From NCBI GenBank assembly GCA_007449985.2, contig VIIQ02000039.1, positions 558,001 to 622,000 of the forward strand: 64,000 nucleotides of DNA, written 5' to 3'. The notes below the pieces were generated by a model. It was not told the origin of the DNA. It worked only from the letters and a program-made list of their open reading frames with translations, and searched no databases. This document shows positions 1 through 64,000 of the stretch, piece after piece (the stretch's first letter is position 1; each line of letters begins with the position of its first letter). This stretch comes from Desmodesmus armatus. Lineage: Eukaryota > Chlorophyta > Chlorophyceae > Sphaeropleales > Scenedesmaceae. Made by a program: the position numbers and the translations under genes.

Positions 1-5115
<5,115 letters not shown>

Positions 5116-6255: not shown

Positions 6256-8603
6256 ATGCTGCGATCGCTTGCTACAGCTGGGAGTTCGGCCCTTGGTTGC
6301 TGTCAACTTGTTCCCAGCATATCATCCCTCCTACATCTCCAATCAACGCAATCAACCCTCCAGCAGCGCAACTCGGTCCACACAAGCAGAAGCAGCAGCT
6401 CCCCATCACCACAAGAGCCTGATGTGGACAGATTGCAGCAGCAGCTCCTAGACAATGCTCTGCAGCACGTCAAACGTCTAGGATGGACGCGTTCCAGCCT
6501 GTCTGCCGCAGCAGCAGACATGCAGCTGTCTCCTGCTTCTGTGGGCATGTTCCCTCGAGGCCCCAGTCAGCTGGTGGAACACTTCATTGCCCAGCAGAAT
6601 GCTGAACTGGACAGGTGGGCCATTAGAATTTTGGCGGGAACATCATTGAGAAATCCAAGCCGTCCTGATATCCAGCTTTCCTGCAATGGACAATGGGTGA
6701 ATGATACCCTCTGTCATTGGCACCCTCTGTGACACTGTCCTGTGCTTCTCTTCCTGTTCAACCCTAAACAGGGAGCTCCAAGCAGCACAGCAGCAGTACC
6801 TGGCTCTGCCTCTCAGGCAGCGGATCACAGCAGCAGTCAGGCGCAGGCTGGAGATGAACGTGCAGCACATCGACTCCTGGCCACAGGTGCGAGTGCATGC
6901 ATGGGTGCGCACCCCCTCAACCCCCCCCCCCACCACCCCCCCCATACACACACATACTCTAACACGGCCTGACACTTGTCAGGCTCAAGCGACCCTACCA
7001 ACATCAGTAGCACTGCACTTCAACTTTGTGGCTCCTGGCCACAGGTGTCTGTACATGCACGGGTGCGCACCCCCCCCCCCCCCCGCCCCCCACCCCGCCC
7101 CCCGGCCCAGCCTGACACATGTCAGGCTGGTGCAACTGTTCCAGCAGCAGTAGCAGTGCAATTCAGACGCGCCACAACGTCTAGCAAGGAAGGGAGCCTG
7201 ACAACATGCCCCACCATGCCACCAACCCAAGCTCCACATCACCTCAGGTGCTTGTTTGGCAATAACGGACGCCCGTCTCCTCCCTCCCTCCTCCCCCCGC
7301 CCTCCCTGCTCCCCCCCCCCCCACACACACATCCTTGTGGGGTTATGGGTGATATGCTTCATAGAACTGCTTGCATGTGACTGATATGTTGCCTACATGC
7401 TAGCTATACTTGTATTCTCTCTGCTTAACACACCCCGGGGCTGCCCCTGTACCGCCCGGTGCACACTGCTTGCACTTATCGCAAGGCGTAGCAAGCACCC
7501 TTGTCAAACACTCTCATCCCTTGCCCACCCGCTGTGCAGGCTCTCGCCCTCCTGTCCCAACCTGCCAACGCACCCGCAGCCCTGAAGCTGCTCACTCAGC
7601 TGCTGGACACCATCAACCACCTTGCATGCCTCCCTGGCATCACACGAACCACACCCACACGCATTTTACACTCCCCTGCCAGCCTTCAAACCAGACACTC
7701 CTTGTTCCTATCACGCTCCCCCCCCCCCCCCCCCACCCCCCCCGCGCAGGCCCTTGCACTCCTGTCCCAACCAGCCAACGCACCTGCAGCCCTGAAGTTG
7801 CTTACCCAGCTGCTGGACACCATCTGGTATGCAGCAGGAGACACGGCCACAGACAGCAGCTGGTACACAAAGCGAGCAGCGCTGGCCTCAGTCTACCTGT
7901 CCACGGAACTGTACATGCTCACTGACTACTCACCAGGCTACGCAGGTAAGCCAATATGGTTTGCCCTCCCTTCCCCTCTCCCCCACCCCACCACCACCAC
8001 ACACACGAAAACACACGTGCTGGTTTGTATGGTTGGCCCCAAGCCGCGTGTGAGCACGTCACGTCATATGCCACACATAACATTGCAGGCCAATATTGCT
8101 GGATGAGCTGGTCCATATTGCTATCACGCTGTCAACGCACATGCAGCATGCCACATGCTGCATGCTTGAGTCAACGCTTAGCATGGGTGGACCGGCGCTT
8201 GATGTTGGCTGATGTCGGAAGGGCGTAGCAAGCTTCCGTCAAGCCCATGGGTTAGTTCATCAGCCACACTGGCTTGTGATATGCACACGGCCAACGGCTA
8301 CAGTGGTGTGCGCACGTATCGCTTCCCAGACTTCCTTTGCTCATGTTGTGCTGTGCTGTGCGTTGTTGTGCTGTGTACTGCTTGTACCATGCAGACACTT
8401 GGCAGCAGCTTGAGCGGCGTATCGATGATGTGCTGTGGCTGGGCAGTGCAGCACAGAGCGCAGCAGCGCTGCCGCAGCTGCTGTTGCAGGCGCTGGCGCG
8501 GCTGCAGCAGCCTGCAGCTCAGCAGCAGCAGCAGCCGTCGCACCCGCCGCCGCCGCCGTCGCAATCGCTGCAGCAGCAGCAGCAGCCGGCTGCAGGGCAG
8601 TAG
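6256..8603 (+). CDS. COQ9: COQ9, ubiquinone biosynthesis protein (mitochondrial)
   Basis: COQ9 is a lipid-binding TetR-fold protein that partners the COQ7 hydroxylase in the mitochondrial CoQ synthome. Exons: 6256-6614, 6772-6886, 7750-7945, 8395-8603, totalling 879 nt or 292 residues. The ATG at 6256 is preferred over an upstream TTG. It opens a Ser/Arg-rich segment without acidic residues for its first ~45 residues, typical of a mitochondrial transit peptide. Family motifs seen are HVKRLGWT, VGMFPRGPSQLVEHF, then after the intron ALALLSQPANAPAAL, AAGDTATDSSWYTKRA, YLSTELYMLTDYS and RRIDDVLWLG. The protein ends in an unusual ~40-residue Gln/Pro tail that typical COQ9 proteins lack. Parts of exons 2 and 3 and the 3' tail have partial tandem copies next to them. 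Splice phases agree at every junction. Confidence 0.93.
7020..7050 (+). repeat. Partial copy of COQ9 exon 2 end with donor
   Basis: GCTCCTGGCCACAG followed by GT repeats the end of exon 2 (CGACTCCTGGCCACAG at 6871-6886). The following intronic bases, GTGCGCACCCCC, are also shared. A second shared motif, CCTGACAC-TGTCAGGCT, flanks the unit near 6968 and 7110, so about 140-160 bp was duplicated. Confidence 0.7.
7540..7614 (+). repeat. 75-nt copy of the COQ9 exon 3 start, protein-identical
   Basis: This follows a good AG acceptor and encodes the same 25 residues as 7750-7824 (ALALLSQPANAPAALKLLTQ, then LLDTI). The two copies differ at eight nucleotides, all synonymous, including one CTG/TTG leucine change. 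The offset is 210 nt (70 codons) and the frame is open through the intervening segment into the true exon. Confidence 0.92.
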
Positions 8604-8748
8604 CCGTATCTGTTGGTGCAGGCGATGGCGCAGCAGACAACCAATCATGCCGCAGCAACAGCAGCCAGCAGCTCAGCAGCAGCAGCAGCCGTCACACCTG
8701 CCGCCGCCGCAGCAGCCGGCTGCAGGGCAGTAGCCGCATCTGCTGGTG
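8488..8748 (+). repeat. Tandem duplication of the COQ9 3' coding tail including its stop
   Basis: Two ~130-bp units, about 8488-8618 and 8619-8748, share the CAG-rich Gln/Pro tail, the segment CCGGCTGCAGGGCAGTAG with the stop, and ~15 bp beyond. The first carries the functional stop at 8601-8603; the second lies in the 3' UTR. Confidence 0.8.

Positions 8749-27282: not shown

Positions 27283-27319
<37 letters not shown>
27283..27319. repeat. (GTA)n separating the two A/B arrays
   Basis: About 37 bp of pure GTA repeats between the third A copy and the first A' copy. Confidence 0.95.
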
Positions 27320-27320
<1 letters not shown>

Positions 27321-30055: not shown

Positions 30056-30300
<245 letters not shown>

Positions 30301-36200: not shown

Positions 36201-36325
36201 GCAGCCTGCAGCAGTCCTGGCCCGCCGGGCAGGCCTTCTACCACAACAAGGTACCGGGCCACTTCACCATCAGCAAGCAGCGTTACAACGCTGTGCAGGT
36301 GGCGCCCAGCTCCCTCTCTGCCTAG
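33239..36325 (+). CDS. Retrotransposon gag/protease ORF (Ty3/gypsy type)
   Basis: The frame is open from 33230; the first in-frame ATG is at 33560, giving 921 residues, and 5' truncation is possible. Residues after the ATG look like a gag capsid-type helical domain (about 33560-34080). A Ser-Gly-Gln repeat tract (34080-34260) and a long Ser/Ala-rich region follow. At 35,750-36,180 there is an aspartic-protease-like domain: GTVLDIGCTYSIMNKPWL, with DIGC in place of the usual DTG/DSG, then VALGLEFMDAY. No CCHC zinc knuckle was seen. The TAG at 36323-36325 ends the frame, and pol begins 53 bp later in another frame. Confidence 0.8.
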   Translation: MVDSLILITAAPAVGGLTSNTRDKGSKRVAHVHHAGDLRTSIQQQQQQQQGVPAHSSAAQQSSQLQPQHPAPSAAQQSSQLQPQHPAPSAPADSDDRSSSSGSRHPGMLKEARELLPKLTKSMTVPQWRGMVDQAMIAVREMMPTARFTTREFAILLRARIDSSLNSELANMPAEATTSVDSLFAALSVLLPSDEQDLQRRLDDLPPQSTEQAEVIAGTIYKAYQGARVPLPEGVERYQLFALKYATQAALFIQQALRTVAPGKAFGWNDFLAICRQYDSAQPRQQRSGRQQSGQQQQQSGQQQQSGQQSGQQQQSGQQSGQRQSGQQYQASGGRQQQQQQGSRHVRFAPAANGTSYEEERSYGSSSPRQQGGSSFRGGRGGRSGYNNSNGGSSSSAPPYNSNPFADTPGDYGGHYGGSGPTAGGVRYSSFLAGAVVRPDFAPAAGSTSISPLAARSSSGLAAASAKSAGRSVPRAAAAVSRSISGAALGSLLMSGPPLNSAAGVGSTGSAISRSGLSEITPADEDCPAYSSSGGSARLSAGQSTHNSSSSGRSSLAAAAPLYNSGSSSSTGVPAALFSSSGGSSGGSSGLPAAQPSHSGGSSSYSAAAPPDSSSSSSGPCAAAPSYSPGERLTSEAFFSLVQAISAATQAPLAATAAAATSVPPVRSRKPRGAERVVSESPQDAAEPPAAAAPAPDPTLVRLQHQLRNLQTPMSMQTLIATVSAPGLEQLRAVLTQLGEVLGLPTGSYVPVAAGVLAASILQTSSVDEAPASPVQHPGSPAGLASGALPYSSLAAAVRSDGSSSSSGSAPAAGPSRISSSSSPRASGPPPPATPYKDAVQSEVVTVPFTTPITVTGGVQGRHFGTVLDIGCTYSIMNKPWLRKNSHVFFYPGSPVELLAFEPPAPSLGVMLGDTRSQATHLLRNVPLELGDGIYRVNFLVMPHSMFDVALGLEFMDAYAARVSTKAYGLPGTGPQLYIPTPRSFCRRSLQQSWPAGQAFYHNKVPGHFTISKQRYNAVQVAPSSLSA

Positions 36326-36377
36326 AGCAGTAGGGTGCCGCTTCAGAGTGTCTTAGTGTTGTTCTCGTCCGTTGTCA

Positions 36378-39338
36378 ATGTCTGTTGTTCATGAGTCTTT
36401 TGTGGAGCCCGCCCCCGAGCGTGGCCTGCCCTCTGAGGCAGATGTTGAGGCAGTCATGGCCGCTTTGCAGTTGCAGCGGGAGCGTTATGCTCACCTCACT
36501 GATGAGCAGTTTCACCGGCTGCAAGTCTTGTTGTTTGCTTATGTGGATATCTTTTCTGTGGATGGGGCCTCTTTTGGGTGTGTGGCTCGGGATAAAGAGT
36601 TCTATCATCGCATCCCAACGGGTGATGCTCGCCCTATTACTCAGCGCCCTTACAAGCTGAGTTATGCACAGGCTGTGTGGCTCAAGGGTGAATTGGATCG
36701 GCTGCTCCAGTTGGGGGTCATTCGCCCCAGCAGTAGTCCGTGGATGTCCCCTGTTGTGATTGTGCCCAAGCCGAATGGGAGCTGGCGGTTGTGTGTTGAC
36801 ATGCGCTTGCTCAACAAGTGTACAGAGGCAGACCCCTACCCCCTCCCTACTGTTGAGGAGATGCATGCGGCTATGGGCGGTTGTGCCCTGTGGTCGAAGA
36901 TGGATTTTGTGAGTGGGTTTTGGCAGGTGGAGATCCATCCTGACGACTGCCACAAGTGTGGTCTCACCACCCCTCATGGCAACTTTGAGTTTGTGCGTAT
37001 GGTTATGGGCATGCAGTCGGCTCCCTCCACGTTTCAGCGTCTCATGGACACCATGCTGGCGGGAGTGGAGCATGCTAAAACGTATATTGACGATACTTTT
37101 ACCTTTACGCCTGACTTTGACAGTCAGATTGCGGCTCTTGAGCGTGTTTTTGAGCGCACCAGGGAGTACAAGCTCACCATGAACCCCCTGAAGTGCAGCT
37201 TTTGTGTTGAGGAAGTGGTTTGTTTGGGGCATTTGGTGTCCGCTGAGGGCATCAGTCCTGTGATGGACAAGGTGGCAGCCATTCTTGAGCTGCAGCCCCC
37301 TACTAATGCCAAAGCTATGCGTCGGTTTTTGGGCATGATGGAGCAGTACCGGAAGTACATCCCCCGCTATGCTCTCTTGGCGGCTCCTTTGCAGCTTATG
37401 TTGCGCCGCAATGTTGCGTATGTGTGGACGGATGAGGCTATTGTGTCTTTTGAGGCTCTGAAGGAAGCTTTGTGCTCGGCCCCCGTGCTGGCCTTGCCCA
37501 ACTGGGAGCAGCCATTCATCCTCACCACTGATTGGAGCCGTGTGGCTATTGGTGCTGTATTGTCACAGGAGCATCCGGGTACGGGTGAAGAGCACCCCAT
37601 TGCTTTTGCTTCTCGTGCGCTTACCCCAGCTGAGCGGAACTATGCCGCCACTGAAGGGGAGTGTCTTGCTGTCAAGTGGGGTGTGGATAAGTTTCATTAT
37701 TATCTGCATGGCCGCCACTGGCAGTTGCGCACTGACCACAAGGCCCTTGAGTGGCTCAATACTGCTAGATTCACCAACTCCAAGCTGGAGCGGTGGGCTA
37801 TGCAGTTGCAGGAGTATGATTTTGATGTTGAGTATATCCAGGGTTCTACTAATGTGGTGGCTGATTATTTGTCCCGTGCCTCTGAAGCCACCCTTGAGCG
37901 GGAGGATGGCACGCGTGAGTCTGTGGTGTGTGGTGTGGCTGGTGGTGTGGTGCCCTGCAGTTCTGCTTGGCCTGCCGAGGCCGCTAAGCAGGCAGACTTT
38001 GATTCTGTGGTTTGTGATGTATGCCAAGACCCAGGGGTTTTTGATAACATGGCCATTTGTTCAGGTTGCAATCGCTGCCTGCACCTGCGTTGTGTTATGC
38101 CTCCCCAGTCCACAGTCCCCACCGGTGAGTGGTACTGCCCCGGTTGTGACCCGCTGTTTGGCAATCTGGAGGAGTTGTTTGATGCTGCGCCCATCTTGCA
38201 GTACACAAGCTGTGACCCCTACTGCAATGAGGTTTTGCTTTCCTTTGTGCGCAGTGGTTATGATGAGGTTTTCTTGGAGGGTTTGCCTTCCCGCACAGCG
38301 CGTATTGTGCGCCACAGGGCGGCTTCTTTGCGCCCTCACCTTCGATTGGATGGTTGGTTGATGGTCATGCGGCATGGCACGTCTGGTGTCCCGCAGTGGC
38401 TCACTTGCCCACCTTTGTCTTACCGCTGGGACATCATTCGCTGTATGCATGATGCCCTTGGCCATGCTGGTACCCGTCAGTTGAGCGCTAGCATGAAGCA
38501 GCATTTCCACTGGCGTGGTTTGGATCGTGATGTTTCGTTGTTTGTTGCACAGTGTGATGCGTGCCAGCGGCGCAAGCTGGTCATTGCTGCGCCGCCGCCC
38601 CTCACTGAGCCCATTATCAGGGGCCCCTTTGAGCATGTTCATGTGGACTTGTGTGGTCCGTTTGACACGCCTGTGGCTGACCTGCATGGCAGGCTGTTTA
38701 TGCCTGAGAAGCCGATCAAGGCGTATGTTGTCCTAATGATCGACTACTTCACCAAGGCCGCTGAGTTTGCTGTCGTGTATGACAAGCAGGCCCCGTCTGT
38801 GGCGAAAGCTTTCTATTATTCGTGGATTTGTCGTTATTTTGTGCCCTCTCATGTCACCACCGACAATGGGTCGGAGTTTTCCGATGAGTTTAAGCACTTG
38901 CTGGCGCGGCTTGGTATCAAGCATGTGCACACCACAGCCTGCCACCCCGCAGCTAATGGTGTTGTTGAGCGGCTGGTTCAGTCCTTCAAGGCCATGCTTG
39001 TGAAGCATGTCAACGAGCACCCCCTGCACTGGTTGCAGAGTATGCCTGTCATGCGGCAGCAGTACTGGGCTCGTTTGCATACTGTTTTGGGCATGTCACC
39101 GCATGAGATGGTTTTTGGTCGTCGGCCTGTTCCAGTCATGCCCTTGGCGCGCGAGTTTATCGCTGCCGCTACTGTGGCTGACGTGTCGGTTGTGCCTGAC
39201 GAGTTTGAGTGCCCTGATCCCCATTCACATGTTTATCATATGCGGCGGTTGTTCGAGGGTTTCGATGCTACGGTGTCAGGCGATTCGGCAGCAGTTCGCC
39301 AAAAACGCAGCTGCTTGGCCGTTGCGTGGTGGCAGTAG
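36378..39338 (+). CDS. Retrotransposon pol: reverse transcriptase, RNase H, PHD finger, integrase
   Basis: The ATG at 36378 follows an in-frame TAG at 36354, so pol is a separate ORF of 986 residues. Reverse transcriptase spans roughly residues 60-290, with RLCVDMRLLN, a gypsy-type catalytic YIDD near residue 235 and CLGHLVSAEG. RNase H follows (TTDWSRVAIGAVLSQE, then ATEGECLAVKWGVDKF). Residues ~545-595 form a PHD finger with a C4-H-C3 pattern: CDVCQD, CSGCNRCLHLRCV and WYCPGC. The integrase has the HHCC zinc motif (H...H, CDACQRRK) and a DDE core: HVDLCGPF, TTDNGSEF, NGVVERL. Domain order RT-RH-IN marks Ty3/gypsy. The frame ends prematurely at 39338, and the integrase C-terminal part continues in the +1 frame. 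Confidence 0.92.
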   Translation: MSVVHESFVEPAPERGLPSEADVEAVMAALQLQRERYAHLTDEQFHRLQVLLFAYVDIFSVDGASFGCVARDKEFYHRIPTGDARPITQRPYKLSYAQAVWLKGELDRLLQLGVIRPSSSPWMSPVVIVPKPNGSWRLCVDMRLLNKCTEADPYPLPTVEEMHAAMGGCALWSKMDFVSGFWQVEIHPDDCHKCGLTTPHGNFEFVRMVMGMQSAPSTFQRLMDTMLAGVEHAKTYIDDTFTFTPDFDSQIAALERVFERTREYKLTMNPLKCSFCVEEVVCLGHLVSAEGISPVMDKVAAILELQPPTNAKAMRRFLGMMEQYRKYIPRYALLAAPLQLMLRRNVAYVWTDEAIVSFEALKEALCSAPVLALPNWEQPFILTTDWSRVAIGAVLSQEHPGTGEEHPIAFASRALTPAERNYAATEGECLAVKWGVDKFHYYLHGRHWQLRTDHKALEWLNTARFTNSKLERWAMQLQEYDFDVEYIQGSTNVVADYLSRASEATLEREDGTRESVVCGVAGGVVPCSSAWPAEAAKQADFDSVVCDVCQDPGVFDNMAICSGCNRCLHLRCVMPPQSTVPTGEWYCPGCDPLFGNLEELFDAAPILQYTSCDPYCNEVLLSFVRSGYDEVFLEGLPSRTARIVRHRAASLRPHLRLDGWLMVMRHGTSGVPQWLTCPPLSYRWDIIRCMHDALGHAGTRQLSASMKQHFHWRGLDRDVSLFVAQCDACQRRKLVIAAPPPLTEPIIRGPFEHVHVDLCGPFDTPVADLHGRLFMPEKPIKAYVVLMIDYFTKAAEFAVVYDKQAPSVAKAFYYSWICRYFVPSHVTTDNGSEFSDEFKHLLARLGIKHVHTTACHPAANGVVERLVQSFKAMLVKHVNEHPLHWLQSMPVMRQQYWARLHTVLGMSPHEMVFGRRPVPVMPLAREFIAAATVADVSVVPDEFECPDPHSHVYHMRRLFEGFDATVSGDSAAVRQKRSCLAVAWWQ

Positions 39339-46189: not shown

Positions 46190-49100
46190 TTAACAGGATC
46201 CGTCAGATGTGTCCTTGCTTGTGGCCATCAGTGACAACTGCCAAGACGCGCCGCAACTTGCCAGGCTAGGCTGGCCGGGCCACGAGGACCCACTCAGCCC
46301 AACCTCTCTTGACCACGCAAGTGTACCCTTACGCTGACCCACATGGTCATGATCCAGGACTTGGTACTCGCCAACATCTATGACACCTCCTGCTACTTTG
46401 CGCACCCACCGACCAATCTTCCAGTCTGTACGCAAAAGAATCTCTCGTCTTTATGATTGCGCACCCCCCCCCACACACACACACTCACCTCGTCATTGAC
46501 CTCTTGAACTCGCCCAGCTGCACGATGCCCCTGATGAGGCGACACGTCTTGGGACGGAGGTCGGGGTTCGACGTAATCTGGACGGTGATGCCAGCGCACC
46601 TGCAGGCGCAGAATGGCAGTACGTGATTTTTTGATGATTTGAAAGAGTCATGGAGTTTAGTGCGCTTTGAGAGCATCAGCTTGCCAGGTTCACCCGTCCC
46701 AGCACACTCAAATGTACTGCACTGCGGTCCGGCATGATGGTGGTAGCTTTGCGCGCTGTCGAGCCCAGCAGTCATTGCCGCAGTGACGTGTGTAGACAGA
46801 GAGCGTGCAGCCAACCGTACAAAGAGCCAGTGGAAAAGGGAAGCCAAAGTACTGGCGCTATGTCGAAAGCTGTGTCGCCCTGGGCATACTCACGTGATGT
46901 CAATATCACAGGCATTCAGGCAATCCTGCAGCTTTGTGAAGCTGTTCTTGTTGGGAGCATCCGTCTGGATGCCAACATTCAAGGCTCCGGGCTCCTGTTG
47001 CAGAACAACAGCACAGCAGACAGCTCGCTCAGCCTCCAAACCTTCATGCGTGGGATCTGCTCAGCTCCCCACCTTCACACTGGTCGTCCCCTTTCACATG
47101 CCAGGTGTAAAGGGGGTTCTCGGTTTTGACGGCACACAAGTTGTACCCTTAGACCGTGCAGGGGGTTGCCCGCCCATTGACAACAGCGTTGCCCACAGTT
47201 GGCAAGCCCAACATGACGCGGAAGCTCAGGGACGCGCTCTAGGCTCAATTTGGGCTACCGGTGTCAGATCACCCACAACACCGGCATGTGCTGACCACTG
47301 AATATGCCTGCCTGCCTGCTCGGGCCTACCAAAAATGGTGGTTATTTTTTTTACTTGCCTCATCATGATGCAGTGGTACTCAGGGCTACATGCCTGATCG
47401 GGCAGAAGTACTAAGGGAAACTCAAGACTCCCCTCATACAAGGCACACTGCCCACCGGCCACTGCTGCTGACTGCCCGTCCAAAAACAACAAAAACCGTG
47501 ACTCGCTTGCCTAGGCTGATAAAACCCGACCCACCTGATAGAAGCTGTACTGCCCACTGGCCACTGATGCTGTCCCACAAGGTCGTTCACAATGGAGGGG
47601 CCTGCCAGTTCGCCAGCGCCCACCACTCCAGGCCCCGAAATGACGCCGGTGCTGGGCCTTGACGCAGCATTCATGCCAACATCACCGCTGGGAATGCCCT
47701 TGAAACCAATGATGGGCTCCCTGTACATTGATTGACGGAATGAACGTTGACACAGTGAGCTGAAGATACTCGAAGACAGGGTTTTTGCACAGGTTTACCG
47801 AGGTTTACCAATCATTGTATGACAATGATTGGAAGGGGAGATGGAGCTGGCGATGCGTCATGCTGCCGCTGTGCCGTCAGTCGCTCTGTTCCGGGTACTT
47901 TTGCCTCTTCGAGGTTATCCCCCAGCGCTGGGAGCGCTAGTCGGATAAGCTGCCAAAGCCGAAGCAAGATCATTGCTCAACAGCAACAAGAAACCAATGA
48001 GTGCGTCAGGATTGCATAGCAGGTGCAGATGGTGGTGCTGACACTGTCAGCACCACCTTCGCCATGTGGCACATGGCGAAGCGGAGTATGCTACCCATAT
48101 GCGTGCTGTCATGCAGATGCACTAGCGGTGGATGCACATGGGTGCGTAACACCGGGGGGGGGGGGGTCCTAATGTCCTTACCCGACGAAGACGATCTGTG
48201 CAAGGTTGCGCACATAGCAGTGGCGAGCGACATAGTCGTATGTGACGTACTGACAGGTGTTCGTGTTGCACCTGGCGACGCATGCGGCAAAGGTTGCCGT
48301 GTTGGTGTAGTGCTGGATGGTGTTGTTGCCGGTAGTTGGCAGCCACCTGGACGAGCCGACAACAGCAGCAGGCACACAAGTACACGTCAGGGACTGGTTT
48401 GTGCCCCAATAAAGGTCTGTTGCTGCAAGTGTGCAGCATTGCATTCGAAGACAGATGAACTCATAAGCAAGTGTTGCCGCCTTGGCGCATGTAACCCCCC
48501 CCCCCCAAAAAAACATTGGTGAACAAAGCTGGGGAACCACGTTAGGACCCTCAATCCCACAAGCGCGGTCAGCGCAAGCAAGAAAAAGGCTCACCATGCG
48601 CCGTCAACCATCTGCCCAAATTCTGCCAGGCAGTCTTTCGGCCCGTAGGCCCCAGAGGCGCCACAGTCCTCGGGGCAAACACATCGTTGTCAAAACCCCA
48701 GGAGAAAGAGAAGCCGACTTCTGCGATGGCACATTCCAGACACGCACTGCCAAACTCCCGGCCGGCAGTACCTGTGGTGCGCGGAGAAGGAAGGTAACAG
48801 TTACAGTATTGCCTCAGCCAGGATTTTGTTTGGGGGGGAGGTTGTTACAAGTAGATACTTTCACCGCAAAGCGGTACTCTCAAAATTGAGCGACCCTGGC
48901 TCAACCAATTGAGCAACCACAAGGGAGCCAGAGGCTTATGGGGGAAACCCGTGCAGTGAAGCGTCAGACAGGCGAGCTCAGCTGCATTGAGCACAGCTGC
49001 ATTACACACAGCTCAGCTGCATTGAGCATTACACACAGCTGCATTACACTGTGTGGCACACAGACCTGAACATGCATGCCATGTGCTTTCCAAGGGCATG

Positions 49101-52100
49101 GTGCCAATGCCATTGTTGTGCAAGTGGACAGTTGTTGTTGCGCAGTAATAAGAAGTAGTTGCTAGGAGGGTTGTTGCCAAAAGTATGAGCTTTACAGCAC
49201 AAGCAAGCGGTGTGCTGTGTTGACATGACAGTGTGTGATGTGTGACATGCGCATGTGCTCACCATAGGTTGGGTTGTTGGGGCCGCCACACTGCGAGGCG
49301 CAGTTGGTGCCACCCCAGCCGGGCAGACACACTGCAGCAGCCAGAGCGTTGAGCACAACACACGCAGCAGTAGTTACAGCAAGTTACACAAGTGAGGGGC
49401 CGGTCCTTGCTGCCAGATAGGCCTCGCTGGAGCTGTCACAGCTGATTAGTAATCAAGCCCAGCCGAGACAACCCTGAAGACACGACCCCAAAAATGCATT
49501 GATGATTAGTAAGTAAACATCAATAACACCACCAACACTGTCACGACTCACGGTTGCAACTGTTTGCGGCGTCGCCGCCACTCTTGCTTGTTGTGCTGCC
49601 TGTGGGGCATGCTGTGCACATGGCCGTGAGGTTGGGCGTGTACTCCCTGTCATTGTAGGTGCCTGCAAAGCAGCAGCAGCAGCAGCAGCTGCTGTCAAGG
49701 CCATGCACCTGCGCTTGCCTCACGCTGCCATGGCATTGACAGCCGCAGAAGGTTCTGCCATCGCTTGAGAGGTGCCTTGCTGCTGTCCCAGCCCCTGAAC
49801 AGCCTCAGAGGTGCTTCCAGATCCGTAACAAATCTACGTAGTATACTTTTGTAACCAGAGGTTAAAACGAGGCAGGTGGGGGGGCTCTAGGTACGAGAGG
49901 CCAACCCAAGTTGGCCAGCAGAGCTGTTGTACTGTCAACAAACTGTCAATGAAGCTCACCTATGGGGCAGAGTTGGATTTTTCCGTCCACCAGGCCGTAG
50001 CCGCGAGCAATGCCGCAGCTGGCTTTGGTGAATCCCTTGCCCACACCCTCCGTGGTGGTGCCAAACTCACAGGCAGTGCAGGTCCTGCAGGCAACATTAG
50101 AAAGCAGGGCAGGAAGGCACAACAGGCATGAGCACAGGCTGTCACCGGGTGTTGGCCACTTGCTAAGTGACATGGTCAACCAACAACATTTCCCCCCACA
50201 CCATTCGTGGTGGTGCCAAACTCACAGGCAGTGCAGGCTCTGCAGGCAAGCACGACAAGCAGGCACAACAAAACAGGACAGCAGTTGAGTTGGCACAGAC
50301 AGGTGTTGGCCACCCACTAAGTAACTAGTACTACCCACAACAAAGGTCGCAGGTTGTTCTTTGTGCTCAACACTTGAACCTGCACAGCCCCAACACCAAG
50401 CCTGTGCGCTAGCTGCAGCTGTGTGCAGGGTGCATAGCCCTGCTGCAGCCTACCTGCCAGGTAGTCAGTGACTGTACCAGAACCAGTCATACTCACGAGT
50501 CTCTGGGGTTCCAAAAGCCCTGCCCACAGGCCTGCCCTCCACGGCCAGACATGCCTAGCCTATCCCAACCATATGCATCAGTTAGAGTAGTCCTGAGTGT
50601 GTATGCCTGTGCACTGTGAACAACTGCTCTGACAGCCTAGGCTATAGCCCGGTACTCACGAGTAAGAGTCCCTGGGGTTCCAGAAGCCCTGTCCACAGGC
50701 CTGCCCTCCACGGCCCGACATGCCCTGCCCGTCCTGAGTCACACAGGCCAGCACGTCCGTGAATCCACCGGTGAGTGGTGTGTCGCCATTTGTGACGAAG
50801 TACTGTGCGGAGTTTGGGAAGTTGACCCTGTCGCTCCGTGCCACCAGGTTTTGACCGCAGGGCTGCATAGAAGACAAGCATGCAGTGTGTACGAGAAACA
50901 AATTCAGAAGGTAGAGCGACGTGCAGCAACAAAGTGAGCAATCCAACATGTGTGCGTGCGGCCGAGCTACGTGGGTTGGTGGGTGTTGGGTGTTCTTGGG
51001 GACTCAGAAGCCGCCAGTAAGTGGTGTGTCGCCGTTTTTGACGAAGTACTGTGCGGAGTTTGGGAAGTTGACCTTGCCACCAAATTTTGACCGCAGGGCT
51101 GCATAGAAAACAAAGCATGCAGAGTGTGCGAGAGAATTAAGCAAACTAAGGCGGCGTGCAGCAGCAGATTGAGCCAACCCGTGTTTGTGCGGACGGCTAC
51201 ATGGGTTGGTGGGTGTTGAGTGTTGTTGGGGACCAAGAAGCCGTCGCTAGCAGGGTGTCGCCATTTGTGACAAAGTACTGCGCAGAGTTTGGGAAGTTGA
51301 CCTTGTCGCTCCGTGCCACCAGTTTTGGCCGCAGGGCTGCATAGAAGACAAAGCATGCAGAGTGTGCGAGAGAGATCCAGCAGACGCAGCAGAAACAGGT
51401 AGCGTGTGTGTGTGCGGCAGATCTGCCTGTAGCTCTGGAGCTGCATTGGTTGGTGGATGTTGTTGGGGACTCAGAAGCCACAGCTAATTGCAGAAAGAAA
51501 GAATCCGGTACACCCCCTTTGTATCGTAACGCCATAGGATTCCTCCCTTTGGCCTCGCATCCTGTAAGGACGGTTGATCACATGCATGCTCGAGCTCCCA
51601 AAACGTCACCCCCTATGGCTCACCCTGCAAGGTGCGGGTGAGAGGCCGTAGGTCACGCAAGACCTTTGCATAATGCCCCACGCAAGCACCTGGTTGTGCA
51701 ATGTTCATTACCATATACCCCAACATGTCCATTCCCATGAACCCCAACCCCCTATGGCTCACCCTGCAAGGTGCGGGCGAAAGGCCGTAGGTCACGTTTT
51801 CCACGCCGTACTCGTCTCCCATGCAGTTGCGGGCGCCAGGAGTTGGCGAGCGTGGAGAAGAACAACCCTTGGCCAGCCTTGATGTCTGCGACACACAACA
51901 ACGGGGGGGGGGGGGGGGGGGGGGTCAGGTCGGTACGGGCGGGGGAGGAGGGGTAGGGGGTGCATCTGATTCAGTGGGTCATGGAACGATCGCACGAGGG
52001 AATGTTACCCAATGCCAGCATGCCAAAGTCTGACAGATCCCAATCAGCTACCCCCTTGAGTCACCATCAGCACGCGCTGATACGCATCTGCAGTGCAGCA

Positions 52101-55100
52101 CACACTTTGCCCTTGCATGCATGTATCACCCACTACATACAGTGTCAACACACCTCCCCCTGTCTCGGGAGGTCTGGACCCTGTGACGGCTGCTGCTACT
52201 GAGGTGGCCATCACTGTTGCACCTGAAGACTGCTGTAAGTGGGGTACTGGGGCTTGTCTGTTAGGTTTGGGGGGAAAACCCTAACCTCACAGACAAGCCC
52301 CAACACTGCACTTACAGCAGTCCTCCAAGGTGCCGGGTGCAACGGTCATGGCCACCTCAGTAGCAGCATACGTCACGGGGTCATAATTCGTCACAACCTT
52401 GGTTCATCTGCATCACCCCCCCCTCCCCCCGGGCCGTCTCGATGAACATCCCCCCAATAACCCTCACACATGCCCCACTCACAGCAATCCTCGGGTGCAA
52501 CGGTGATGGCCACCTCAGTAGCAGCATACGTCACAGGATCATACTTCGTGACGACCTCAGTTCTGTCAGCAAATACACCTTCGCCACAGGATATGCAGGA
52601 GGATGCTTCAGCTGCTGGCTTCCAGTCAGCCCTGTAGGTGCCGTCGGGGCAGATCTTGGTCTCCCCATTGGCCGTGAAGTGGCCAGGAGGGGTCACTGCA
52701 AAAGTAGGGGGGGGGGGCAGGAAGGAGGGGTGAAGGTTGGAGGATGCTTCAGCTGCTGGCTTCCAGTCGGCCCCGTAGGTACCATTGGGGCAAATGCTGG
52801 TCTCCCCATTGGACGTGAAGTGGCCGGCAGGGGTCACTGCAATTGTGATAGGAGGCAAAAACTCACTGGACAGCATCACTGCTTGACCAAAGGCACTGCT
52901 CTTTCCTTGTTCACTTCCAACACTTCAACTGCCCCCCCCCCCCCCCCCCGCTCCATTTCAAACACCCACAGACTCCCCCCCCCCCCCCCCACCCCGCACA
53001 ACCGTTGACCTTTCGCCTCTGGCCCAGCCCCCCCCCCCCCCCCAAGCCACTCACAGCATTGCACAACGCCCTCAGCGCCCAGCTCCTGAGTCCACTGGAT
53101 GGAGCCCTTTAGGGCACACCTTGATGGTGGGCTCACACAACAACATGACCACTTGACCTATTGAACCCCTCTTTTCTTGCCGACCTCAAATTTGAAGTGG
53201 TCACTTCGGTCGTGCAGTGGGGGGGGGGGGGGGGAGAAGAATGTGAGTGAGATGGGGGGCAGCTGGAGTCATGACTCAAGTCAAGTGCCCACCATCTCAC
53301 CCACATTCTCCCCCCCCCCACTGCACGACCTTTCATCTCTGGCCAGCCCCCCCGACCCCCCCCCCCCCGGGCAACAGTCACTCACAGCAGTGCACAACGT
53401 CCTCAGAGCCCAGCTCTTGGGTCCACAACCCATTAGGGCACAGCTTGATAGTCGGCTCACTGGACAGCAGGGTGGCTTGAGCCAACACACCCTTCTCTCC
53501 CTCTACCGGCCATGACACTCCAACTGCCCCCGTCTCTCCCTCAGCTGAGCAACCTCACACCACATACTTACCCTGCCCCTCTGCACCCCTGTCTAGCTAC
53601 AGCCCCTCCCCTTGCCCCCCCCCCCCGGCGGGACAGGCACTCACAGCATTGCACAACGTCTTCGGAGCCCAGCTCCTGCGTCCACAACCCATTGGGGCAT
53701 AGCTTGATGGTGGGCTCACTGGACAGCAGGGTGGCTTGAGCTGACACCTCACCACTGCCAGCAGCAGCAGCAGCGGCGGCTACACTGGCAGCAATGGCCT
53801 TGGGGGTCACTGCTTGGGTGGGCTTGCCGCCGGGGCCTGCAGTTATAAGCAGAAGACATGGCATGTGCTGTCAGCAACAGATTCTGCGTGTTTCATGTAC
53901 GGTTTCGTCAGTGGCAGTGACCACAGCGGCTTGGGGGTCACTGCTGGTTTGGGCTTGCCACCGGGGCCTACACATCGAAGCATGAGTGCAGGCATTTGAC
54001 AGGGGGCACGAGAGAGCGTTAGCAACGGTGACTGGGTGAGTGTATGGAGCTTAGGCAGCAGCGGCAGCTACACTGGCAATAGTCTGCCTTTGTGGTCTTG
54101 GCTGGGTTGGGCATGCCATTCTACTACTACTACTACTACTACTACTACTTTACTGGATCAGGGCCTCGCCTGATCGCCCTTTCAGGAGCCAAACAAGGCT
54201 CATAGGGCATAAACACTCCTCAAAGAACTCGCATGAGAGAACTGCCATTCAATGGCAGTCGAACTGGAGCCTGCACATGCACTTACAGTAGTAGCCTTGT
54301 GGGCATAGCCTTGCTTCTGTCACCTCCCCGGTGGCATCGTCAAAAGTGGCGGGGTAGTAGGACGGCTCAACGTCTGCACACCACACCACCAGCAGCAGCA
54401 GCAGCAGCAGCCCACATACGGTGAGAGCGGGACTGATGACAACATACAGCTGTTCGGGATACACGCTGGATAATGCTGTCTCGTTGGTTCTGCATATGTT
54501 GCTGCACTGCAGCACACCGAGCATGGTCACATCAAATATTCATCCAAGTCACACCCTTTGCAACTCTCTACCCATGAAACTCACAGGCACAATCCCTGCG
54601 GAACCTCGATGCTTCCTTCAAGGTAGTCACTCCAAAGGGGCACTTGGTGCAGTTGCCAGCACCCTTGCTGCCGCTTAATGTGCCAACTTACCCTCAACAT
54701 CTCGTTGTTTTCACCAAGTATCCCCCCAGCAGACAGCATGCCATCACGGTGTGTCCTCCCCCCTCCCCCCCCCCCCCCCTGGCCCCCCCACACACACCAC
54801 CTCCCCAGCATGAGGCACACCACTATCCATCACACTCACAGGCACAGTCCTTGCGGAACCGTGAGGCTTCCTTGAAGGTAGTCACTCCAAAGGGGCACTT
54901 GGTGCAGTTGCCGGCACCCCCGCTGCCACCCTTCCACTCCCCCTTGGGGCAGGCAGCAACCTGACCAGGGGCCTTCAGGTAAAAGCCAGCAGGGACGACT
55001 GCAGCACAACGAGGGGGTGTGAGGTGTGGGCGGGGGGGGGGGGGGGTGTCAGGGAAGCAGAGTAGGGTTGGGGGTCAAAAACCTAGGTACAGTTGGGCCC

Positions 55101-58100
55101 AGGTAGAAGCAGAACAATGAGCGCGGGGGTGGGGGGCAGTGGAGGTTTGACAGGGTGGGCAACCTGTGTGACAGGAGAGACTTTGGGGCAGGCAGCAACC
55201 TGACCAGGGGCCTTCAGGTAGAAGCCGGCAGGGACGACTGCAGCACAATCAATTGGATGGGGGGTGGGGGGGGGGGGGGAGAGGTGCGACGGGTGGGGTG
55301 GGAGTGCCAGTACACTTGTGAGGGGAGGGTGATCGGCAGGGATCACTGCAGCACCCTGCAGGGGGGGGGGGAGTGCAGGGGAGGTGTGAGGGGGTGGGCA
55401 AGGTGTGTGACAGGAGGCCCTTGGGGCAGGCAGCAACCTGACCGGGTGCTTTTAGGTAGTAGCCGGCAGGGACAACTGCAGCACAATCAACACCCCGGGG
55501 GGGGGGGGAGTGAAGGTGTGATGGGGTGAGCAAGGGGTTTGTGGTGAGAGGCCCTCGGCAGATACAATGCAGGGCAGCAGGTGCTGATAGTCTCAACAAC
55601 GAAGATCTGTTCCCATCCCTTCATTGGTGCTGTCACACTGAGCCAGACATGCAGCAAGAGTAACGTGGTGACTCCCTCCTGCCTTTCTCCCCCCCAACTC
55701 ACTGCAAGCAGTAGGGCTTGTCTGCATCACCAGACCATCTGTAGAGAAGCCGGTAGGACTGCAGCACACAACAAAACACACAGTTTGTCACGGGCCCGGA
55801 TCCAATTGAGTGAGTCAGCACGAAACACGCCTTGTATCAAAGACCGCTTTGTGCGCCAACAACACAGCTGGCAAGAGCTGCTGCTGTTGTAGGCTGCTGA
55901 GCACGACTTCAAGTCCTCTCACCGGAGGTACTAGCACTAAATGAACCCTGAACCGCCGATTCACACTGCTTGAACCCCAAGACTGCGACCCTGAACATGA
56001 TCCAAGAACAAATGGCACTCCAGGCCCGACACCCCGACTAGGACGCCTAAAGCCTGAACCCTAGCCCTAGCAGCCCTGCAAGTCTCACCAAGGCATGCAC
56101 TGGGTGCTGCTTGCGAAACCCTAATCTGCAACCCCCAACCGAAACCCTAAGCCCTCGCTTCAAGGCCTGAAGCTTGAACCCTAGCCCTAGCAACGCAGCA
56201 GCTCTCACCAAGGCATGCACTGGGTGCTGCTTGTGAAACCCTGAACTGCAACCCCCAACCCAGACCCTGAGCCCTTACTTCAAGGCCTGAAGCCTGAACC
56301 CTAGCCCTAGCAGCACTGTGGGTCTCACCAAGGCGTGCACTGGCGCTGCTTGAAGCCCTCAATGCAGTTTACCTTCAACCCCAAAACCCTCACCCTCAAG
56401 CCCAAAGCCTGAACCCTAATGCTAGCAGCACTGCAGGTCTCACCAAGGTGTGCATTGGCGCTGCTTAAACCCTGAACCATTGCTGCAGCTTTACCTCTAA
56501 CCCCCAAAACCCTCACCCTCAAGCCTTGAGCCTGAACCCTCGCCCTAGCAGCACAGCAGGTCTTACCAAGGTGTGCATTGGCGCTGCCTGCGGAAACCTC
56601 TTATGAAAGTGTCCACGGGGCATGGTGTGATGAAAGGCCTCGAGTTGGCATCGAAGCTCATGAAGTAGCCGGGGGGGTTCACTGCAGGGTTAGGCAGAAC
56701 CAGGGGGGGGGTGTAAGGAGGGGCGTTCGTGGGCGAGATGGAAAGAAGAGGAGTGACAGAGTGAGATGAAAGGCCTCATGTTGGCATCGAAGCTCATGAA
56801 GTAGCCGGGGGGGTTCACTGCAGGGTTAGGCAGAACCCCGGGGGGGGGGGGGGTGTAAGGAGGGGCGTTGGTGGGCGAGATGGCAAGAAGAGGAGTGAGA
56901 GAGTGAGATGAAAGGCCTCATGTTTTCATCGAAGCTCATGAAATAGCCGGGAGGGTTCACTGCACACAGGGCAAGACAAGGCATGACGATGCAAAGATGC
57001 TGAGAATTGTTGCAGGTACATGCCACCGTCAAAAATTTGAGAGTTCTTCCAGAAGTAGGTTTCCGGGGTTCTGGAACCTTGGGCTGCAGAAGCCCCGTGG
57101 GAAACACCCCCCCTTCCAGCAGTGGCCTTCTGTAAAGGGGGGCGATTCCGGAAGCCCTATGGAAGGCATCTTCCAGAAACAACCGTGACAGTGGCTGTCC
57201 ACATCTCAGCCGGTCGGGTCAGGGCGACATTACTGGCAGCGGGCAGAACTGACGAGGAAAACACTAAAGACCTGGAGTCTGAAACCCTCTAAACCTGATG
57301 CCACAGGCCTCAAACATCACGACCCTTCAATCCATAAGCCCCTCTCACCGCACATCCAGTCGTCTACAGCCCTCAAGCCCTCCCACACCCCAGGGTCCTG
57401 TCCACAGGCGTCATTTGCCTTTGACTGACGTTCAGGGTTAACCACTCAAACCCTGGCACAACAGCCCCCAAAACCAGGAAACGCCTGCGCCTTGCTCACA
57501 TCAGAGAACTCCCCATAGGCTTCCCTCGCCTTGAGACCCTTCATACCCTGGCGCTACAGGCCCCAAACCAGGAAGCGCCTGCGCCCAGCTCACCACATGC
57601 ATATCGTCTCCCGCCCTCACATCAGAGAACTCCCTATAGGCTTCTCTCGCCTTGAAACCCTTCATACCCTGGCACTACTTGCCCCGTAGAACTCAGAACC
57701 CAGAACCCTTTACCCGAAACCCAAGAACCCAGAACCCTGTGCCCCGCTCACCGCATCCCTTGTCCTCTGCCACCCTCTCCACTTGTGTGAGCATGCCAGC
57801 TGGGCAGGGAACCATACCAGGGGGACTGGCTGCAGAGTAGTCCCCGCCAGGGCCTGCAGGGGGGGGGGGCAGCAACACAGGGCATGCAGTGCAAGATTCT
57901 GAGATGTAGTATGCGAGTGAATTCAGAAACAACAATCGAGGCTCCACAGGGCACCATACCAGGGGGACTGGCTGCAGAGTAGTCGCCACCAGGGCCTGCA
58001 GGGAGGGGGGGGGGGGGGATGCAGCAAATCAGTGCATTTGATATATATGAGAGAGAGTCAACATTCAAGGCTGCAGGGAAGGCTTTAGACAGACTAGTTG

Positions 58101-60426
58101 CCGCCAGGGCCTGCAGAGAGGGGCAGGGGCGATGCAGCGACACAGGGCATGTGGTGCAGTTTATATTCGTGGCTGTAGAGGGGGCCCCGTGGCTGTACAG
58201 GCCTAGGGGGGCACCATGCCAGGGGGCCTGGCTACAGAGTAGTCCCCGCCAGGGCCTGCAGAGAGGGGCAGCACCAAAACAGCAACGCAGGCCATGCAGC
58301 GCAACATTATGAGCTTCAACATGCGAAAGAGTTGAGGCTCATCACCATACCAGGGGGACGCGCAACAGAGTAGTCCCCGCCAGGACCTGCCGGGGGGTGG
58401 GTGGGGGGGGGATTTTGATACTTCAGACGACAACGGCTTTTTCTTTGCCCCCTGACTTTTGGTCCCCTGACTTCAGGCCCAAGCCGTGTAGTGCAGGTGT
58501 TACGTATCCAATTCAAGGGCGACCCAGGGCACCATCACTTGGGGAAGGGGGGGGGGGGGGCGGCTGGCACGCAAGTGGCGCACCCCATACATGCAAGTAG
58601 TTAACACAGTGGTTGCACAAACCTGACGCAGGCCGCTGCTGTTGCATCGCAGACTCCCAGGCCCGGTCATATGGTTGGCTAGGTCACTGCGGTTGCTGCG
58701 GCTGCTGCTGCAGTTGCTGTGTGAATGCTGCTGCTGCTGCTGCTGGTAGTGCCCATGGTAATCACTAATGACTCATCAGCCGGTTTGCTGCTACGGTGCT
58801 TCCTGCCAGCCGGTCATCAGTGTTTCCTTGGCTGCCTGGATGCTGGTTCTGTGTGCCAAACTGCTGCTGACCACGCATCACCCACAAAACCCGGCCGTTC
58901 TGTTAGATATTTGGTGGGTCATCACACGGTTGCCGCCTCGCATGCCTCTCCACGTCTCCCCCCCCCCCCCCCCCGGTCCTCCCCCCCACCTCTCAACCTA
59001 CATGTGAAGTTGAAGGGGCAGTCCGTACACATGTTGACCTTGGTGGGATCCACTGTGGGATTGACGCCATAAAACCCAGGCTTGCAAGCTGCAAAACACG
59101 AAGCAACACCGCAGCACAGCACAGCACGGCACCATTATGTCAGCGCAACACAGCAGAGATCAGCAGCTGTAGCATTGGTGGCTGCTGACGGAGCAGCGAT
59201 GCAGCACACCCCCCCCCCCCCGAAGAATAGGGGTGGCCCCTTGCCCCAAACCACCCCCTGCCTAGATAGACATGTCCTCCCGGCTGCTGCTGCTGCTGCT
59301 GCTGCTGCCGTTCAAGAGCTCTGCTGCTCATGACACTAACAGACCAGCAGCCTGCAGGGAGGATGAAGCCCCACATCCATGCCTAACGCCCCCCCCCCCC
59401 TCCCACCCCATCCCATCCCCCCAACCACATATCCCAAACCCCCTTCCGAACTGCCGCGTTGTTGGGTGGCGGGGTGTACCTAGTGGCTGGAATGGCATTG
59501 CTAGCAGCTCCCACTGTTCAGCAGGTAACCGAAAACCCGTTCTGCTTTGTTTTTACTCACTGGTCTGCCCACAACTTCAAGTTGCCCCCTGCCCTCTGCC
59601 CCCCCCCCCCCCCCCCCGTGGGCCCCCTGCCGCCCCACATCCAGCTGCAGCTCATGGTGCAGGCCAGTTTGCAGCAGTTGCTGACAGAAATGACACTACT
59701 AGCCCTCCCCTCCACACACACAGGCCCCCTGACACCATCCCCCCCCCCCTCCACACACACATCCTCTCTGCTTAACACACACCACCAGCACCAGCACCAG
59801 CACCAGCACCAGCACCAGCACCAGCACCAGCACCAGCACCACCACAACAACTCCAACTGCAGCGCGCAGCGCAGACCAACTCAGGCAGTTGCTGGCAGCA
59901 GTGACACTGGTATTCCAGCCTTGTGAGGGCTGCTGGTGGCCCCTCCCCCCCCCCCCCCCCCCACCAAATGCCAACACCCAGCCGTAGCTCCCACTGCAGC
60001 CCCACTCACCGCAATTGCCATTGACCATGTTGACGCGTGTTTGTTCAAGCACTTGGTGCAGCGCCAACTGCCGCCCCTGGTTGCATTGTGCACACAAAGC
60101 CATGTCCCTCCAAACACACAAACACCCCCCCCCCCCTCCACCAGAGCCCCCTGACCCCCCCCCCCCCCCCTCGGTGCTGCAGCCCCACTCACCGCATTTG
60201 CCATTGATCATGTTGACACGGAGGTTGTTCAAGCACTTGGTGCAGCGCAGGCCTCCAGATGTTGAGTCCTGCACACAAAAGCCTGGCGCACAGCCTTCGG
60301 GGCAGAACGCACTCTGCTGCAGCTGCCGCCCTGCATTCCTGCTGCTGCTGCTGCTGCTGCTGCTGGGGGCGTCAAGCACAACTGCACCATCAGCAGACGG
60401 CAGCTGCTGCAGCTGCCGTCCTGCAA

Positions 60427-60458
<32 letters not shown>

Positions 60459-60896
60459 ACGGCATTGGCACCTGCGCATTTCACAGTGACATCAAGCTGA
60501 AGCACTTCTGATAAGCAGCAGGCGTAGCTGCTGCTGATGATGACCTAAGGGTGGTTTACACTACGTGGCGTGATGTTCGAAGCCCAGCTGCGCCACGGGT
60601 GCGGCCCGTAGGAGCTGGTTGGAAGGTGGTGGTGGTGGATCTGCTGTTGGCTTCTGCTGCCATGCCTACAACACGCTCCGAGAGTGCCTGGCACAGCTTA
60701 CAGCGTGCGTAAGCTGACATAGTTCATAGAGCTGGGCCCTAGCGCGTATCGTGGGGGGTGGAAGGCGTTCCCACCCGCACCGGAGCCAAGAACTTCACTT
60801 ACCTTCACTGTGCGAGGCAGAAGGCGCCAGACGTGCATTTGCAGATACTGTGAGTGCTAGGAACCACAAGGCATACACGCAACGCTTCGGAATCAT
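46190..60896 (-). CDS. Secreted Cys-rich modular protein, ~21 exons
   Basis: The start at 60896 opens a signal peptide (MIPKRCVYALWFLALTVSAN). Minus-strand exons: 60896-60803, 60507-60193, 59088-58990, 57853-57752, 56681-56567, 55758-55703, 54998-54840, 54373-54287, 53836-53645, 52695-52483, 51885-51763, 50862-50660, 50084-49960, 49662-49552, 49331-49263, 48771-48595, 48422-48182, 47720-47579, 46994-46894, 46599-46489, 46448-46190; ~1,030 residues. Most introns are phase 1. The first two thirds are Cys-rich modules of the ephrin-receptor/GCC2-GCC3 type (CTKCPFGVTTF, CTACEFGTTT, CTACPTGSTT) with spacers like GYYLKAPGQ. CLPGWGGTNC resembles an EGF fold. The end has PAN/apple-like pieces (CVARCNTNTCQYVTY; LQDCLNACDID; TCRLIRG). 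Exon 11 needs a one-base shift to join its halves, and the exon 18 donor and exon 21 acceptor are phase-based choices. An extracellular or cell-wall role is inferred; no transmembrane segment near the C-terminus was noted. Confidence 0.75.
50190..50570 (-). repeat. Copies of the exon 12 end and exon 13 start within intron 12
   Basis: At 50495-50560 the minus strand repeats the end of exon 12 (RGGQACGQGFWNPRD) followed by GTGAGT. At 50195-50245 it repeats the acceptor and start of exon 13 (CTACEFGTTT...). Both edges of the same intron are therefore duplicated into it. Confidence 0.8.
51005..51345 (-). repeat. Two copies of the exon 12 start in intron 11
   Basis: At 51245-51345 and 51005-51105 the minus strand repeats the acceptor and first ~95 nt of exon 12 (VNFPNSAQYFV-NGDT). 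Each copy has a CTATGCAG acceptor. The second has an internal deletion of ~16 nt. Confidence 0.85.
51608..51798 (-). repeat. Copy of the exon 11 end with donor
   Basis: The end of exon 11 and its GTGAGCC donor (51750-51798) recur at 51608-51657 with only a few changes. The copy lies in the downstream intron. Confidence 0.75.
52172..52395. repeat. Foldback (inverted) duplication of the exon 10 end
   Basis: Arm 2 (52277-52382) is a direct minus-sense copy of the end of exon 10 with donor. Arm 1 (52173-52268) is an inverted copy, reading TEVAITVAPEDC-type sequence on the plus strand. The arms are about 95 bp and mostly complementary around a short G-rich loop. The intron RNA could form a long hairpin. 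Confidence 0.85.
52741..52840 (-). repeat. Copy of the exon 10 start in intron 9
   Basis: The minus strand repeats the acceptor and the first ~95 nt of exon 10 (VTPAGHFTSNGETSICPNGT against LTPPGHFTANGETKICPDGT). After ASS the copy diverges into a G-rich intron. Confidence 0.88.
53051..53483 (-). repeat. Two copies of the exon 9 end with donor in intron 9
   Basis: Segments at 53382-53483 and 53051-53140 repeat the final ~90 nt of exon 9 (LCPNGLWTQELGSEDVVQC) and the GTGAGT donor, with growing divergence. Poly-C runs (poly-G on the sense strand) separate the units. Confidence 0.85.
53930..53970 (-). repeat. Copy of the exon 9 start in intron 8
   Basis: The minus strand repeats GPGGKP-AVTPK after a GTAG acceptor, matching the start of the exon at 53836. 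Confidence 0.75.
54583..54680 (-). repeat. Copy of the exon 7 end with donor in intron 7
   Basis: The minus strand repeats GNCTKCPFGVTT through RDCA and then GTGAGT, matching the last ~85 nt of exon 7 with scattered changes. Confidence 0.85.
55183..55492 (-). repeat. Two copies of the exon 7 start in intron 6
   Basis: Copies at 55183-55245 and 55425-55485 repeat the CTGCAG acceptor and VVPAGYYLKAPGQVAACPK of exon 7. Each unit also carries a poly-C run (poly-G on the sense strand). Confidence 0.88.
56050..56590 (-). repeat. Satellite-like series of the exon 5 end with donor
   Basis: The last ~28 nt of exon 5 plus its donor (real: 56567-56590) recurs at 56438-56465, 56323-56350, 56203-56230 and 56083-56112, a 115-122-bp period. 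Each unit carries CCCTAGC-type filler (minus-strand GCTAGGG). Confidence 0.88.
56767..56965 (-). repeat. Two copies of the exon 5 start in intron 4
   Basis: The acceptor and start of exon 5 (VNPPGYFMSFDANSRPF) recur at 56767-56822 and 56908-56962, reading FMSFDANMRPF and FMSFDENMRPF. Each is followed by the same AG-rich filler. Confidence 0.88.
57753..58390 (-). repeat. Four copies of the exon 4 start in intron 3
   Basis: The acceptor CTGCAG plus GPGGDYSAASPPGMVP of exon 4 (57853 downward) recurs with its acceptor near 57995, 58110 (short), 58255 and 58386. Units are ~110-150 bp and contain poly-C runs (poly-G on the sense strand). The exon at 57853 is chosen because only it continues with CPAGMLTQVERVAEDKGC. 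Confidence 0.88.
60004..60080 (-). repeat. Copy of the exon 2 end with donor in intron 2
   Basis: The minus strand repeats the exon 2 end (CTKCLNNLRVNMINGKC) as CTKCLN-RVNMVNGNC with a one-base deletion, followed by GTGAGTGGGGCTGCAG as at the real donor (60192). Confidence 0.85.

Positions 60897-62277: not shown

Positions 62278-64000
<1,723 letters not shown>

Follow-up and report, generated by a model that had tools for sequence, protein, structure and literature searches.

Tandem duplication over splice boundaries is already known, from single cases, as a route to new introns. In a potato gene, a duplication across an intron-exon boundary created a new intron (PMC4974935): a local direct duplication that crosses the acceptor and carries the branch site, the pyrimidine tract and the 3' splice site together with a piece of exon. 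Here, we describe partial copies of exon edges in the introns of Desmodesmus armatus, both in a gene for a cysteine-rich protein (the Cys-rich gene) within a window of 64,000 nucleotides (nt; contig VIIQ02000039.1, positions 558,001 to 622,000 of the forward strand) and in a sample of loci from the same assembly (GCA_007449985.2; 115.8 Mb, 831 contigs). The rbcL sequence in this assembly belongs to the green lineage, its full-length matches being 90-92% identical. The potato gene is a single case with a spliced new intron, whereas this alga has dozens of cases in the sample, seen in genomic sequence at acceptor as well as donor edges.

Other described systems offer partial likenesses. Small tandem duplications arise from the repair of breaks with complementary overhangs, involving CST and Pol alpha-primase (PMC8355091), and as these are likewise short direct tandem duplications, end-joining repair is a plausible mutational step here. 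Introners (PMC9860276) also seed splice sites across a genome. They differ in that the copies described here derive from their own neighbouring exon and the spacers compared share no family: no introner-like element was common to the spacers aligned all-versus-all, a comparison that did not extend to a genome-wide spacer search. Intronic minisatellites are likewise tandem arrays in introns, their units measuring from tens up to hundreds of nt; unlike them, many cases here comprise just one old copy or two, which the piece of exon makes recognisable. Patch-mediated repair in rice, reportedly treated by Vaughn and Bennetzen in 2014, is a further end-joining route to short direct tandem duplications and a plausible mutational step. 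Among the literature matches listed, whose coverage leaves out most subscription journals, there was no description of a genome-wide pattern of this kind.

The Cys-rich protein matches Pfam Ephrin_rec_like repeats (4.7e-12) and has five relatives (P0001 to P0005), two of which, P0001 and P0002, were aligned to the gene and combined with a splice-site model to set 20 exons. The closest relative, P0001 (878 amino acids, 54% identical across the full query), reads as mRNA-like because its contig is only 2,767 bases long; in the alignments it contains each exon segment once, and the intronic copies appear as extra, weaker matches. Self-comparison of the gene gave 27 intronic matches of at least 30 bits, each to the start or the end of one of 10 exons between E2 and E18. 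Two are doubtful (a CAG-rich one upstream of E2, and E18 at 37 bits) and 25 are solid, in good agreement with the first-pass annotation, which had put the number at about 25. E5 has two start copies and four end copies, and both kinds are also present for E7, E9, E10 and E12. The gene and its copies are as follows.

46489..60896, minus strand: Cys-rich gene, 20 modelled exons (spliced model and relatives P0001-P0005)
60807-60896, minus strand: E1, modelled first exon
60404..60456, minus strand: E2-start-side copy, doubtful, CAG-rich
59994..60064, minus strand: E2-end copy, donor GT, 92% (source exon 60193-60331)
58209..58409, minus strand: third and fourth E4-start copies (fourth at 58344-58401)
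58090..58158, minus strand: second E4-start copy, 78%, in-frame stop
57947..58011, minus strand: E4-start copy, acceptor AG, 94% (source exon 57752-57853)
56761..56964, minus strand: two tandem E5-start copies, unit about 142 nt (source exon 56567-56681)
56045..56566, minus strand: E5-end array, 4.6 repeats of a 120-nt unit, donor GT
55183..55508, minus strand: two tandem E7-start copies, unit 239 nt (source exon 54840-54998)
54568..54672, minus strand: E7-end copy, donor, 89%
53930..54117, minus strand: two E9-start copies (source exon 53645-53836)
53027..53488, minus strand: two E9-end copies, donor (53296-53488 and 53027-53136)
52739..52842, minus strand: E10-start copy, 89% (source exon 52483-52698)
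52334..52405, minus strand: E10-end copy, 89%
51608..51657, minus strand: E11-end copy with 16 intron bases, 96% (source exon 51763-51885)
51007..51373, minus strand: two tandem E12-start copies, unit 238 nt (source exon 50660-50862)
50497..50555, minus strand: E12-end copy, 93%, zero amino-acid changes
50195..50342, minus strand: E13-start copy (source exon 49960-50084)
47426..47470, minus strand: E18-end copy, doubtful, 37 bits, donor lost (source exon 47535-47720)
46489-46599, minus strand: E20, last modelled exon
about 46190-46425, minus strand: terminal exon, outside the model

Because it is in frame with E10 (141 nt), the E10-start copy could instead be exonic. At the E10-end copy there is an inverted repeat (52177-52382, 76%), and 52177-52244 matches 52473-52540, at the end of E10, in reverse (88%). 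By eye, a G run in E16 (48594-48771) appears to be one base short relative to the frame of P0001 and P0002, which seems to be a frameshift or a homopolymer assembly error. A genome search with 564 amino acids gave no support for a second, diverged gene copy or haplotype as the source of the copies, none of the candidates scored exceeding 66% identity, and the 595 bp around the E12 copies matched only themselves. The protein does have a large family of relatives in the genome (G000; contigs C710, C62, C35, C630 and others): of 87 matches, 76 are located elsewhere than in this gene, with identities that are mostly about 40-55% and reach no more than 66% among the candidates scored.

To gauge how general such copies are, loci were picked solely by protein family, as the best 30, 30 and 23 kinase, helicase and ABC matches with 1.5 kb on either side (83 loci); removing six that overlapped others left 77 for counts of exon copies, spacings and codons. 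Exons were modelled with a small gene finder trained on the family matches (eight of the 83 loci, with in-frame stops in the core, were modelled without it), and exon edges are thus approximate except for core exons and the Cys-rich gene. At a threshold of at least 45 bits, the 83 loci held 74 pairs of direct local repeats, in 27 loci, with no inverted repeats and no repeats between loci in 83 pairings. Partial exon copies numbered 41, in 17 of the 77 loci, and are a lower bound because copies overlapping a predicted exon were excluded, where whole-exon copies could also escape. Exon pieces gave no match to the non-exon part of another locus in 77 pairings and no inverted match in their own, so that the expectation of a rate above that of random pairings was borne out (41 against zero). 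Eight of 63 homology-backed exons carry copies. Exon-edge copying is therefore genome-wide and general in the sample, as the first reading of the window had proposed; with exon parts 76-100% identical to their source, the process is probably still ongoing, as that reading also held.

These results bear on a further explanation, that the copies are assembly artefacts produced by merged haplotypes or by repeats that the assembler misplaced. The apparent deletion in the G run of E16 does hint at residual homopolymer errors. Set against this, copies differ from their exon by up to 24%, with a codon-position pattern, arrays contain copies of several ages, 17 of 77 loci are affected, and among the candidates scored, identity to pieces of the Cys-rich protein at other loci does not exceed 66%. 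We regard an artefact as very improbable.

The anatomy of the copies was described for a combined set of 67, comprising 26 from the Cys-rich gene (threshold 38 bits) and the 41 from other loci. Copies of exon starts lie upstream of their exon, and copies of exon ends downstream, in 66 of 67 instances; the exception, in L053, is apparently an exon called on a copy. The exon part measures 18-103 nt (median 57), with a median identity of 89%, and 58 of the 67 copies reach the predicted edge. Successive copies are spaced by a median of 143 nt (interquartile range 126-176), 48 of 67 spacings falling between 113 and 184 nt and only three below 100. The first-pass statement that copies stop at no fixed length hence holds for the copy ends, which vary, and not for this spacing. 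A detection limit is unlikely to account for the few short spacings: among planted duplications under assumed mutation rates, a unit of 70 nt was recovered in 28 of the 30 young cases and in 18 of the 30 old ones, and a unit of 90 nt in 26 of 30 and 23 of 30; units of 50 nt were never recovered. Units of 70-90 nt would mostly be detected.

Some of the cases are plainly tandem. Arrays with homologous intron parts are present at E5, E7 and E12 and in L028, L053 and L063, and two young duplications match across the whole unit (L080, 98.6%, unit 113 nt; L049, 98.7%, unit 85 nt), one of them at an exon edge according to the model of an overlapping locus, L082. Within L080 (2551-2809), the 113-nt unit appears, with boundaries placed by eye, to comprise the last 7 nt of an exon, a complete intron of about 76 nt and a further 30 nt from the exon that follows, so a whole intron seems to have been duplicated. 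The local duplications group into 47 families, 31 touching an exon edge, 11 in non-exon sequence (some of these in loci without a gene model, L061 and L080) and five inside an exon. The crossing of a boundary that marks intron gain by tandem duplication is therefore seen in 31 of 47 families, and in the 58 of 67 copies that reach the edge. Whole-exon duplication, as in mutually exclusive exons, was not seen in the Cys-rich gene (0 of 26) or in any of the 67 copies, a set without copies that were themselves predicted as exons; it was also absent from the core exons (0 of 69), but two of the 47 families (L037 and L074) span a whole predicted exon.

We consider the best explanation, with a probability of roughly 0.7, to be small tandem duplication, for which no targeting of boundaries is needed, combined with selection for intact exons and fast intron divergence. 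Under this explanation, small tandem duplications, mostly of 115-260 nt, would arise often throughout genes and land irrespective of exon edges; many would span one edge because exons and introns (medians of 182 and 257 nt in our gene models) are only slightly longer than the unit. An edge-spanning duplication would leave the exon intact and place a partial copy with its splice site in the intron, so that start copies would end up upstream and end copies downstream, while selection would probably remove whole-exon and exon-internal duplications. The copies would then decay, the intronic part of the unit fading first. The mutational step may be replication slippage or the repair of nicks or breaks that lie close together, perhaps with help from G runs. 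Local direct copies, their sidedness and spacing, their occurrence across the sample, partial tandem contiguity and decay are all observed directly; the most likely mechanism is small tandem duplication filtered by selection for intact exons, unusually visible in its level and unusually narrow in its length.

Fast intron divergence has support from paralogs. Between L066 and L073, 17% of third positions differ, yet three of their five introns are within 0.02 of shuffled-sequence identity, as is the one intron compared between L027 and L033. Similarity is lost more quickly in these introns than at synonymous sites, and for this reason old duplications persist as islands at exon edges. The excess of edges among families does not show targeting either, because edge copies stay visible longer than intron-only duplications; a process aimed at exon-intron boundaries, as the first-pass wording could suggest, is not needed.

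Several observations nevertheless weigh against this explanation. Random placement of the same unit lengths hits an edge in about 33% of cases, compared with 31 of 47 families (the edge criteria for the observed families and the random placement differ somewhat), and the narrow spacing of copies does not follow from the explanation. Nine of 67 copies end inside the predicted exon. In 18 of 24 chosen copy pairs there is no intron homology between spacer and outer flank at z >2, and L034, L067 and E11 have none although their exon parts are 95-97% identical; simple tandem duplication would predict such absence only if introns turned over very quickly or filler DNA was added. Fast divergence, as seen in the paralogs, explains much of the missing homology but is strained for these three, where junction filler is possible. 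At the codon level, copies and exons differ by 158 replacement and 195 silent codons, fewer replacements than expected if the copies decayed neutrally, with a ratio of third to other positions of 2.66 (bootstrap interval 2.15-3.31); these counts are not independent within an exon. Copy-unique changes by codon position number 24, 25 and 56 and agree with this deficit, although the oldest copies include exon-lineage changes. Possible reasons for the deficit are weak constraint, capture from diverged alleles, or exon and copy having traded roles.

The missing intron homology would be expected if the copies arose by insertion with a long target-site duplication or filler, nicks 40-100 nt apart flanking a splice site and the segment between them being duplicated around unrelated DNA. 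The match often stops a few nt beyond the splice site, even in copies of 95-98%, and covers 17 nt of intron or fewer in 38 of 67, including the nine that end inside the predicted exon; the 18 of 24 pairs lacking homology fit as well. However, in 29 of 67 the match covers over 17 nt of intron (over 40 nt in 20 of them), six of the 24 spacers retain homology to the outer flank (z >2; mean z over all pairs 1.55), and spacers share no repeat family when compared with one another. Insertion around filler is therefore unlikely in our view. The six homologous spacers also weaken plain non-homologous insertion as the source of all copies. A mobile element in the spacers was considered and rejected, the mutual matches of the spacers compared being G/C runs, overlapping E4 spacers and one weak pair (L027 and L049) only.

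The codon pattern raises the alternative that copies are functional, for example as decoys or alternative splice ends, and persist under purifying selection. Their third-position bias resembles that of real paralogous exons, exon parts have fewer indels (7 in 1460 aligned bases) than intron parts (65 in 2094), and the replacement ratio is uneven among copies (p 0.012). Splice sites are mostly intact, too, with dinucleotides preserved in 51 of 57 copies, which by our estimate is about what overall divergence predicts. On the contrary, changes fall mainly on the copy: among the 61 amino acids that differ in the Cys-rich gene, a relative sides with the exon alone in 35 and with the copy alone in 7 (both, 6; neither, 13). 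Stops account for 7 of 158 changed codons against a neutral expectation of 3.9%, and hence are not depleted; partial exons would often break the frame; and the mRNA-like P0001, only 54% identical, has each exon segment once. We judge function to be quite unlikely; copies mostly decay.

Runs of G or C show a weak association with the copies. Runs of at least 7 were present in 8 of 19 introns with copies and 22 of 135 without (introns of 250-1200 nt; odds 3.7, p 0.013), and duplication spans hold 34 runs where 15.7 would be expected for these loci. Some of the association may be a consequence, because duplication multiplies runs, and intron location may also contribute; of the role for G runs suggested initially, the association stands, and breaks or slippage may or may not start at them. 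Across the 77 loci, coding-strand G runs (at least 7) are concentrated in the 5' half of predicted introns, 40 lying there and 5 in the 3' half; C runs number 5 and 7 in the two halves. The Cys-rich gene has 14 G runs and 5 C runs in the 5' halves of its introns, and 7 G runs and 10 C runs in the 3' halves. A bolder proposal, which we hold as doubtful, is that a preferred duplication step of ~140 nt is linked to coding-strand intron G runs, with edge copies temporarily under partial coding constraint, for example through swapping of exon and copy, and a large standing pool of splice sites. A length of ~140 nt is near the size of one nucleosome or one Okazaki fragment.

Elsewhere in the window, the recurrence claimed for genes labelled CDC48, COQ9 and UNG was upheld for the first two, with three copies in CDC48 and one clear and one weak copy in COQ9. 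The CDC48-labelled gene matches Pfam AAA, its name being that of the earlier annotation, and COQ9 is identified by Pfam COQ9 (5.9e-30). The UNG label is unconfirmed, as an abridged peptide of its two in-window exons matched no Pfam family; that gene has two weak CAG-rich matches (40 and 46 bits) and a 187-nt array.

1217..1281, plus strand: CDC48 exon-start copy (source exon 1357-1524, spacing 124)
3906..3965, plus strand: CDC48 exon-start copy (source exon 4005-4132, spacing 92)
4734..4779, plus strand: CDC48 exon-end copy, 96% (source exon 4373-4509, spacing 267)
7524..7614, plus strand: COQ9 exon-start copy, clear (source exon ends at 7945, spacing 213)
8546..8683: COQ9 weak copy
63374..63926, plus strand: 187-nt array x 3, after the UNG-labelled exon 63094-63223

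The window also contains long GTA arrays with large tandem repeats (21443-30301), one at a spacing of 1,735 nt with 99.9% identity, and a retrotransposon-like region (33368-38794) that matches reverse transcriptase (RVT_1, 2.9e-13).

Boundary copies of graded age thus accompany about one in eight exons (8/63). Such a genome would allow the whole course between a duplication and its eventual decay, or its conversion into a new intron, to be traced within one species, and would make the length and rate of duplication measurable. To judge by their sequence, copies that carry splice signals could feed the birth of new introns.

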